DNA from: Caloramator sp. E03
GTDB taxonomy: Bacteria; Bacillota; Clostridia; Clostridiales; Caloramatoraceae
DNA: 64,000 nucleotides
Assembly (NCBI RefSeq): GCF_006016075.1
Contig: NZ_CP040093.1
Span: forward strand, 620,001-684,000
Reading direction: 5' to 3'
The notes under the pieces are model-generated. The model worked only from the letters and a program-made list of their open reading frames with translations. It did no database searches and had not been told where the DNA came from. Both the position numbers and the translations under genes were made by a program. Below, piece after piece: positions 3,142 through 7,508 of this stretch (position 1 is the stretch's first letter; the number at the start of each line of letters is the position of its first letter).

Positions 3142-4148
3142 TCACTCCTTAGTATGTTTTTTACCTAAATGTTCATAAGCAAGTTTAGTTGCTATTCTTC
3201 CCCTTGGTGTTCTGCTTATAAAGCCTATCTGAAGAAGGTATGGTTCATAAACATCTTCTATAGTATCATTTTCCTCACCTATTGAATAAGCAAGAGTATC
3301 AATTCCAACAGGCCCTCCTGCGAATTTATCAATTATTGTTAAAAGTATTTTCCTATCGATATTATCAAGTCCAAGTTTGTCTACCTCAAGTAAATCTAAT
3401 GCTTCTACAGCAGTTTTATAATCAATAAATCCATTTCCTCTAACCTGAGCATAATCCCTAACCCTTTTTAAAAGCCTATTTGCAATCCTTGGAGTTCCTC
3501 TTGATCTTCTTGCAATTTCTAAGGCTCCTTCATCATCAATTCCAATTCCAAGTATTTTTGATGACCTTTTGACTATCAATGAAAGCTCATTAACATTATA
3601 TAGCTCAAGCCTACATATTACTCCAAACCTACCTATGCTCCTAAAGGTGAAGTTAACATTCCTGCTCTTGTTGTTGCTCCTATAAGAGTAAATTTGGGAA
3701 GGTCTATTCTTATAGAACGTGCACTTGGTCCCTTACCTATTATTATATCCAAAGCATAGTCTTCCATTGCAGGATAGAGAATTTCTTCTACGCTTCTATT
3801 TAGTCTGTGTATTTCATCAATAAACAAAACATCCTTTTCTCCAAGATTTGTAAGTATTGCTGCAAGATCTCCGGGCCTTTCAATTGCAGGACCTGAAGTT
3901 ATTCTTAAACCGCATCCCATCTCATTTGCTATTATACTTGACAATGTAGTTTTCCCAAGTCCTGGAGGTCCGTAGAGTAAAACATGGTCTAAAGATTCTC
4001 CTCTGTTTTTAGCAGCTTGAATAAAAATCGAAAGCTTTTCTTTTACATTTTCCTGGCCTATATATTCATCAAAGCACTTTGGCCTTAGGCTTCCTTCAAT
4101 ATCTATATCCTCAAATTTAAGCTCTGAGGTTATAATCCTTTCATCCAT
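3142..4148 (-). pseudogene. ruvB: Holliday junction helicase RuvB, frameshifted
   Basis: Two reading frames together cover a complete RuvB. The N-terminal part (4148 to about 3633) carries [14 protein letters not shown] (Walker A), LFIDEIHRL (Walker B) and [15 protein letters not shown]. The C-terminal part (from about 3635 to 3142) carries [33 protein letters not shown] and the winged-helix domain. They meet at the spot where RuvB has PLRDRFG, the arginine-finger motif. Between the codons for PL and FG there are 14 nt (3636-3649) instead of the expected 9, including a tandem TAGG-TAGG, which shifts the frame and gives a TAG stop. As written, no full RuvB can be made. A sequencing or assembly error is possible; the rest of both halves looks well conserved. 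Confidence 0.88.
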
Positions 4149-4754: not shown

Positions 4755-5248
4755 TCATTTTATTCTAAACATTTCTCCTGCATGGCTTGAATGTCCGTGA
4801 CAAATTGCAATTGCTATGGCATCGGCAGTATCATCTGGCTTTGGAATCTCTTTTAAATTAAGTATAACTTTTACCATCTGCTGTATTTGCTTTTTTTCAG
4901 CTCTTCCATATCCAACAACTGCCTGCTTTACCTGAAGAGGAGTATACTCATAAATGTCTATGCCATTTTTTTGTGCACAAAGCACAGCTACCCCCTTGCC
5001 TGTCCAACTATTATAGCAGTTTTTGAATTTTGATTAAAGAAAAGCTCTTCAAAGGCAACAGCATCAGGTCTATATTCTTTTATTATATCTTCTAATGAAT
5101 TATACAATATTTCAAGTCTCCTTGGCATACTATCCTTGTTTGAAGTAATTACAGATCCATAATCAACTACTTTAAACCTATTCCCTTCGTAATCTAAAAT
5201 CCCATACCCCATTATAGCAATTCCAGGGTCTATTCCTAAAATTCTCAT
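4755..5248 (-). pseudogene. ruvC: Holliday junction resolvase RuvC, frameshifted in a G run
   Basis: The first frame (5248-4988) encodes MRILGIDPGIAIMGYG with the catalytic Asp-7 and AFEELFF with the second catalytic acid. The second frame (about 4990-4755) encodes the rest, [15 protein letters not shown] through [11 protein letters not shown] with the last acidic residues. They join at GQARG: the gene has five G (4991-4995) where six would give [12 protein letters not shown], so a single base loss in a homopolymer creates a TAG stop. Rejoined, the product is 164 residues, normal for RuvC. Either a sequencing slip or a real mutation would explain this. Confidence 0.9.
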
Positions 5249-5261
5249 AAGATCCTCCTAA

Positions 5262-6925: not shown

Positions 6926-6952
6926 GAAAAAGCCGCGTTAAGCGGCCTTTTT
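6926..6952 (-). terminator. intrinsic terminator after DUF1858 gene 1
   Basis: GCCGC-GTTAA-GCGGC (6932-6946) with T runs on both strands. It follows the DUF1858 stop codon at once on the minus strand. Confidence 0.85.
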
Positions 6953-7143
6953 TACTTTAATATTGAATTTAAATCCTTTACAAGGGAGTCAACATCTATT
7001 CCATGAGCTAGAGCACCCTGCTCTAAGTTTTCAAATCTTGCTGCCATTCATCCAAAACAGCTCATGCCATATTTTACGAAAACATCAACAGTTTGAGGAT
7101 ATTTTGATACTATTTCTGTTATGCTCATATCCTTTGTTATCAT
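6952..7143 (-). CDS. DUF1858 redox protein with in-frame UGA, candidate selenoprotein
   Basis: From the ATG at 7143 the minus strand encodes 63 codons with one internal TGA at codon 32 (7048-7050) and a TAA stop. The product reads MITKDMSITEIVSKYPQ..., then GMSCFG, then the TGA, then MAARFENLEQGALAHGID to the end. The neighbouring paralog at 7314-7508 has GMGCIGCMAARF, so the TGA stands exactly on the second cysteine of a CxxC redox motif; read as selenocysteine it gives CxxU. Downstream of the TGA the two genes differ mostly by synonymous changes (5 of 6 differences in the next 19 codons), which means this part is still translated. A hairpin of bacterial SECIS type follows (see 7009-7025). 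Clear AGGAGG ribosome binding site. DUF1858 is the hybrid-cluster-protein-associated disulfide domain. A plain nonsense mutation is the alternative. Confidence 0.78.
7009..7025 (-). promoter_or_regulatory. SECIS-like hairpin after the in-frame UGA
   Basis: In the mRNA the sequence UAGAGCA-GGG-UGCUCUA forms a perfect 7 bp stem, extendable by one U-G pair, with a GGG loop. The loop starts 29 nt after the UGA, within the spacing of about 16-37 nt reported for bacterial SECIS elements, and has G at the first loop positions as that model requires. In the Cys-containing paralog the equivalent stretch keeps only a 4 bp core. Confidence 0.65.
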
Positions 7144-7232: not shown

Positions 7233-7279
7233 ACAAAAAAACAAAAATAAACCCCTATGTATTAAAAACATAGGGGTTT
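7233..7279 (-). terminator. intrinsic terminator after DUF1858 gene 2
   Basis: AAACCCCTATGT pairs perfectly with ACATAGGGGTTT around a 7 nt loop (7249-7279). The minus strand then runs into a T-rich tail. Confidence 0.88.
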
Positions 7280-7313
7280 ATAATAACACATTTTATGTAT
7301 TACTTCACAATGT

Positions 7314-7508
7314 TTATTTTTTTATTTTTGCATTTAAATCCTCAACAAGCTTGTTAACATCTATTCCGTGTGCCATAGCACCCTGCTCTAAATTCTCAAA
7401 CCTTGCTGCCATACAGCCAATACATCCCATTCCGTAAGATGCAAAAACTTCCACAGTTTCAGGATATTTTGATACAATATCAGTTATAGGCATATCTTTA
7501 GTTATCAT
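7314..7508 (-). CDS. DUF1858 domain disulfide protein (Cys form)
   Basis: A 64-residue single-domain protein, MITKDMPITDIVSKYPETVEVFASYGMGCIGCMAARFENLEQ and on, with a CxxC motif at residues 29-32. DUF1858, also known as the hybrid-cluster-protein-associated redox disulfide domain, is common in anaerobes; its partners and substrates are largely unknown. It is the close paralog of the UGA-containing gene next door, and each has its own terminator, so they are probably separately transcribed. A GGAGGTG ribosome binding site lies before the ATG. Confidence 0.9.
   Translation of the reverse strand: MITKDMPITDIVSKYPETVEVFASYGMGCIGCMAARFENLEQGAMAHGIDVNKLVEDLNAKIKK

Follow-up and report, generated by a model that had tools for sequence, protein, structure and literature searches.

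Is the short DUF1858 gene that carries an in-frame TGA a broken copy of its neighbor, or is the TGA read as selenocysteine (Sec)? The question arises in a stretch of 64,000 nucleotides (the window) from a heat-loving clostridial bacterium, a relative of Caloramator. An earlier note, made from the letters of this DNA, had pointed to the TGA at codon 32, to a hairpin behind it and to an adjacent paralog with Cys in its place, and had proposed a candidate selenoprotein. Our analysis answers that 6952-7143 is not a broken gene but a real selenoprotein gene, newly added to a known family, with a probability of about 0.93.

An open DUF1858 frame on both sides of a single TGA

Under translation table 11, the minus strand holds a 31-residue open reading frame (7143-7048) that is ended by TGA at codon 32. 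This TGA, at 7050-7048, is the only one in the gene, and beyond it the frame continues through another 31 residues before a TAA at 6952. In profile searches, the readthrough product matched the whole domain of TIGR03980 (97.6 bits against a cut-off of 44.95, E 3e-28) and of PF08984, DUF1858 (84.1 bits against a cut-off of 32.2, E 7e-24). The CxxC redox motif of DUF1858/TIGR03980 is present as CFGU, and the Cys of the homologues aligns at the U. With the TGA read as Sec, a standard-code gene call of 31 residues would be wrong. The features of the locus are collected in Table 1.

Table 1. Features of the DUF1858 locus (window coordinates)
Feature	Position	Strand	Basis
DUF1858/TIGR03980 protein, 63 aa, in-frame TGA proposed to be read as Sec, motif CFGU	6952..7143	-	frame, profiles, TGA shared with the orthologues
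Codon 32 (TGA, proposed Sec), opposite the second Cys of CxxC	7048..7050	-	position shared by all TGA forms, 7 near and 9 distant
SECIS-like hairpin UUAGAGCA-GGG-UGCUCUAG, stem of 8 pairs (one of them U-G), loop from 29 nt after UGA	7008..7026	-	
Terminator-like hairpin directly 3' of the Sec gene	6927..6951	-	consensus match only
Adjacent Cys paralog (CIGC), 64 aa, hairpin reduced to 4-pair core	7314..7508	-	frame, profiles, stem count
Terminator-like hairpin between Cys and Sec genes	7247..7281	-	consensus match only

Purifying selection acts 3' of the UGA, though loosely in the closest pairs. Specifically, six orthologue comparisons of the sequence after the UGA gave dS of 0.2-1.35 against dN of 0.13-0.23; for the close orthologues in genomes G001 and G002, dN was 0.14-0.15 and dS 0.2-0.3, so that dN/dS is not very low. 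The comparison with the paralog that the earlier note had drawn was reproduced in full. The Cys paralog, the next gene upstream, is 76% identical to the Sec copy; in place of the TGA it has TGT, which encodes the second Cys of CIGC. Over the 19 codons after the TGA, the two genes differ at 6 codons, 5 of them synonymously (path-averaged counting: Sdiff 5.5, Ndiff 1.5, dN 0.03, dS 0.71).

TGA at the same codon in related genomes

Among 99 related genomes, seven carry this gene with a TGA in the corresponding position (G000, the source genome, and G001, G002, G003, G005, G007 and G018). These genomes, which belong to the family of Caloramator and to one more family, were assembled independently and include Caloramator quimbayensis, Caloramator sp. 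SKW245, Fonticella tunisiensis and Clostridiaceae UBA4839. One Sec copy, that of G007 (L015/L051/L088), reads CFCU, with an extra Cys ahead of the Sec. Among 391 genomes of the class, another family, f23, added more forms with TGA in place of this Cys; they are of three types, CVGUPSAQ, CLGUPGAT (or CLSU) and CFGUGGAL. The UGA column thus holds 110 Cys homologues alongside TGA homologues, 7 of them near and 9 distant, which was the pattern that the earlier note had suggested looking for. Two other candidates were rejected as Sec forms: the TGA matched in G074 is the terminal stop of the gene, and in G036 the Cys is intact. Phage records yielded distant relatives only.

A conserved SECIS-like hairpin downstream of the UGA

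A bacterial SECIS element is a hairpin immediately downstream of the UGA whose apical loop, at about 15-37 nt, contains a G. Behind codon 32, a GGG loop starts at 29 nt on an 8-pair stem that is conserved among the orthologues; the stem, UAGAGCA-GGG-UGCUCUA, consists of the seven Watson-Crick pairs that had been noticed before and one additional U-G pair. Four pairs were counted at the corresponding site of the Cys paralog, as had also been stated. At offset 29, the seven Sec orthologues all have the GGG loop; six of them have a stem of 8 pairs and one a stem of 6. At the same place, the 110 Cys homologues have 0-3 pairs in 105 cases, 4 or 5 in four and 8 in one. The stem is unlikely to be a product of chance, since 7/7 orthologues keep the TGA together with a stem of 6-8 bp, as against 1/110 Cys homologues with at least 6 pairs. 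A lone Cys-form DUF1858 gene in genome G009 (L014 1449-1683) carries a stem of 8 pairs where a SECIS would lie; this could be a relic of a SECIS after Sec-to-Cys reversion, or chance.

Taken alone, the hairpin is weak evidence, because about 2% of the synonymous recodings that keep the peptide produce a stem of such length there, and the hairpin region has a folding energy no better than that of shuffles (z -0.31). An Rfam scan of the region returned sub-threshold matches only. Comparison is more informative: across ten Sec forms that share this offset, pairing holds in 93.8% of cells, as against 24-46% with a slid partner, and two stem pairs are altered on both sides. This conservation of the stem and these compensatory pairs support the hairpin as a predicted SECIS. 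Of the CFGUGGAL genes in f23 (L170, L173 and L174, from three genomes), the stem at offset 29 is clear in two, with 9 and 6 pairs, and has one mismatch in the third. A simple hairpin search found no convincing hairpin at offset 29 in the distant CVGU and CLGU forms, and we therefore limit the SECIS claim to the CFGU types.

Selenocysteine machinery and the alternative readings

The earlier note had made its proposal depend on selA, selB, selC and selD; all four are present, with the reservation that selB is frameshifted in the assembly. The four genes lie side by side on one strand (G000:269527-274032). selC scored 69.9 bits against the Rfam tRNA-Sec model, above its cut-off, and ARAGORN assigned it the anticodon TCA. 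Furthermore, selA is present in 7/7 near and 8/8 distant genomes with a Sec form, and none of the four tested genomes that lack selA (G017, G019, G071 and G088) has one. selD (G000:C1:273115-274032) has a TGA of its own and an 8-pair SECIS-like hairpin.

selB (locus L046) falls into two frames near G000:C1:270535, at a run of seven G in ATAGGGGGGGAACC. A real frameshift would mean that Sec insertion fails: the selenoprotein would then have been functional in an ancestor, and this strain, having lost selB, would make a truncated peptide only. The break is there in the only assembly, but it sits in a homopolymer and selB is intact in both congeners. Within the window, ruvB (3145-4148) and ruvC (4755-5257) are each divided between two frames, a pattern that fits indel errors in the assembly, which makes at least two other conserved genes broken in the same way. 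The frameshift in selB is for these reasons probably a sequencing or assembly error. selD and the DUF1858 gene also retain their TGA codons and hairpins, and we regard the loss of selB in this strain as very improbable.

An assembly with frameshifts in selB, ruvB and ruvC does hold errors, and a functional Cys copy adjoins the gene, so that the TGA might instead be a nonsense mutation, or a miscalled TGT or TGC, in a redundant duplicate of the Cys paralog. The visible errors, however, are indels and not substitutions. Moreover, the same TGA, with the frame intact after it, occurs in six other independently assembled genomes, the hairpin is kept specifically in the TGA copies, and selection acts beyond the TGA. 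The orthologues largely refute a pseudogene or miscalled base, to which we give almost no credence. As little belief is due to a true or leaky stop, with a 31-residue peptide or low readthrough by another amino acid as product and a regulatory role for the hairpin: UGA termination always competes to some degree with Sec insertion and the hairpin overlaps coding sequence, but the aligned residue is Cys in other homologues, the sel operon is present and the protein 3' of the UGA is conserved at the amino-acid level.

The proposal of a selenoprotein is thus sustained by the domain match through the TGA, the seven TGA orthologues, the conserved hairpin and the sel genes. We consider it very likely that 6952-7143 encodes a selenoprotein that would be made and would act as follows. 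SelB would bring the Sec-tRNA encoded by selC to the UGA at codon 32, guided by the hairpin with its loop 29 nt downstream. The product would be a 63-residue DUF1858 selenoprotein in which a Cys-x-Gly-Sec redox pair, presumably able to form a Cys-Sec bond, replaces the CxxC of the paralog. Its likely role would be cytoplasmic thiol/selenol redox chemistry, as a small electron or disulfide carrier that may serve iron-sulfur or nitrogen-oxide metabolism, and with its selenol it would react faster or more reversibly than the Cys paralog.

A tandem pair of Cys and Sec genes

The Cys-then-Sec tandem is retained in five genomes (G000-G003 and G007). A divergent HEAT-repeat gene adjoins the Cys copy in G000, G001, G003 and G007, while in G002 the contig ends there; yebC is next after the Sec copy in G000-G002. 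In a tree built from 86 close homologues, the Cys copies of the five tandems form one group with support of 90/92; the tree is poorly resolved otherwise and is compatible with one or with several origins of the Sec form. The Sec copy of the window is 83% identical to the Sec copy of C. quimbayensis, against the 76% that it shares with its own neighbor. From this grouping and these identities, we conclude that the pair stems from an old duplication. The terminator-like hairpin after each gene suggests that the two genes would form separate transcripts under separate control. We speculate, tentatively, that the long-kept pair may work as two matched halves of a redox couple or as a switch that depends on selenium, with the copies used under different selenium or stress conditions, although we think this rather unlikely.

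Relation to known proteins

The earlier note had thought of a new or little-described selenoprotein, and this part of its proposal did not hold. A DUF1858 domain-containing selenoprotein with CxxU, WP_012065717.1, stands in Table 1 of PMC9312934 (2022), and the CxxU DUF1858 selenoprotein is also listed in a 2026 review (PMC13188914). The family is therefore already catalogued, and the window gene is a well-supported added member. Compared by domain and motif only, the window protein and WP_012065717.1 share PF08984 and Sec as the second residue of the pair in CxxC; the catalogue line itself carries no SECIS, context or tandem Cys/Sec pair. In the open-licence literature, we found no description of a conserved tandem Cys/Sec DUF1858 arrangement. 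What is added here is this conserved pair and the SECIS evidence.

The Cys form described by TIGR03980, the hybrid cluster protein-associated redox disulfide domain, is matched over its full length and above the curated cut-off, but the window protein has Sec for the second Cys and no gene for the hybrid cluster protein adjoins it; the genome has two such genes, both far from the DUF1858 genes. Likeness to the ScdA_N domain at the N terminus of RIC proteins (PF04405; ScdA, YtfE) is weak (E 4e-5, below the Pfam cut-off). ScdA_N is part of di-iron RIC proteins, which have a Cys pair (PMC9268430), and a conserved Cys pair is common to both domains; the motif there, however, is DfCCgG rather than CxxC, and the domain is fused to a di-iron hemerythrin-like domain, whereas here it stands alone (PMC9268430). 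The solved relatives, 2k5e and 2k53, were both deposited as uncharacterised proteins. Elsewhere, the DUF1858 protein bsl7085 belongs to the NnrR regulon, under joint control with denitrification genes (PMC6710368), and DrpB, in which DUF1858 is fused to DUF2249, is a nitrate respiration protein (PMC6282519). Based on these links to denitrification and nitrate respiration and on the relation to ScdA_N, our best guess by analogy is that the DUF1858 Sec protein would be a thiol/selenol redox carrier.

Implications

The gene at 6952-7143 deserves re-annotation in place of the 31-residue call. For the family, SECIS and comparative evidence now confirm the CxxU DUF1858 selenoproteins, for which the entries in the reviews give domain and motif only. 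A small, expressible Sec protein with a natural Cys twin adjoining it also offers a system in which to measure what selenium contributes to CxxC.
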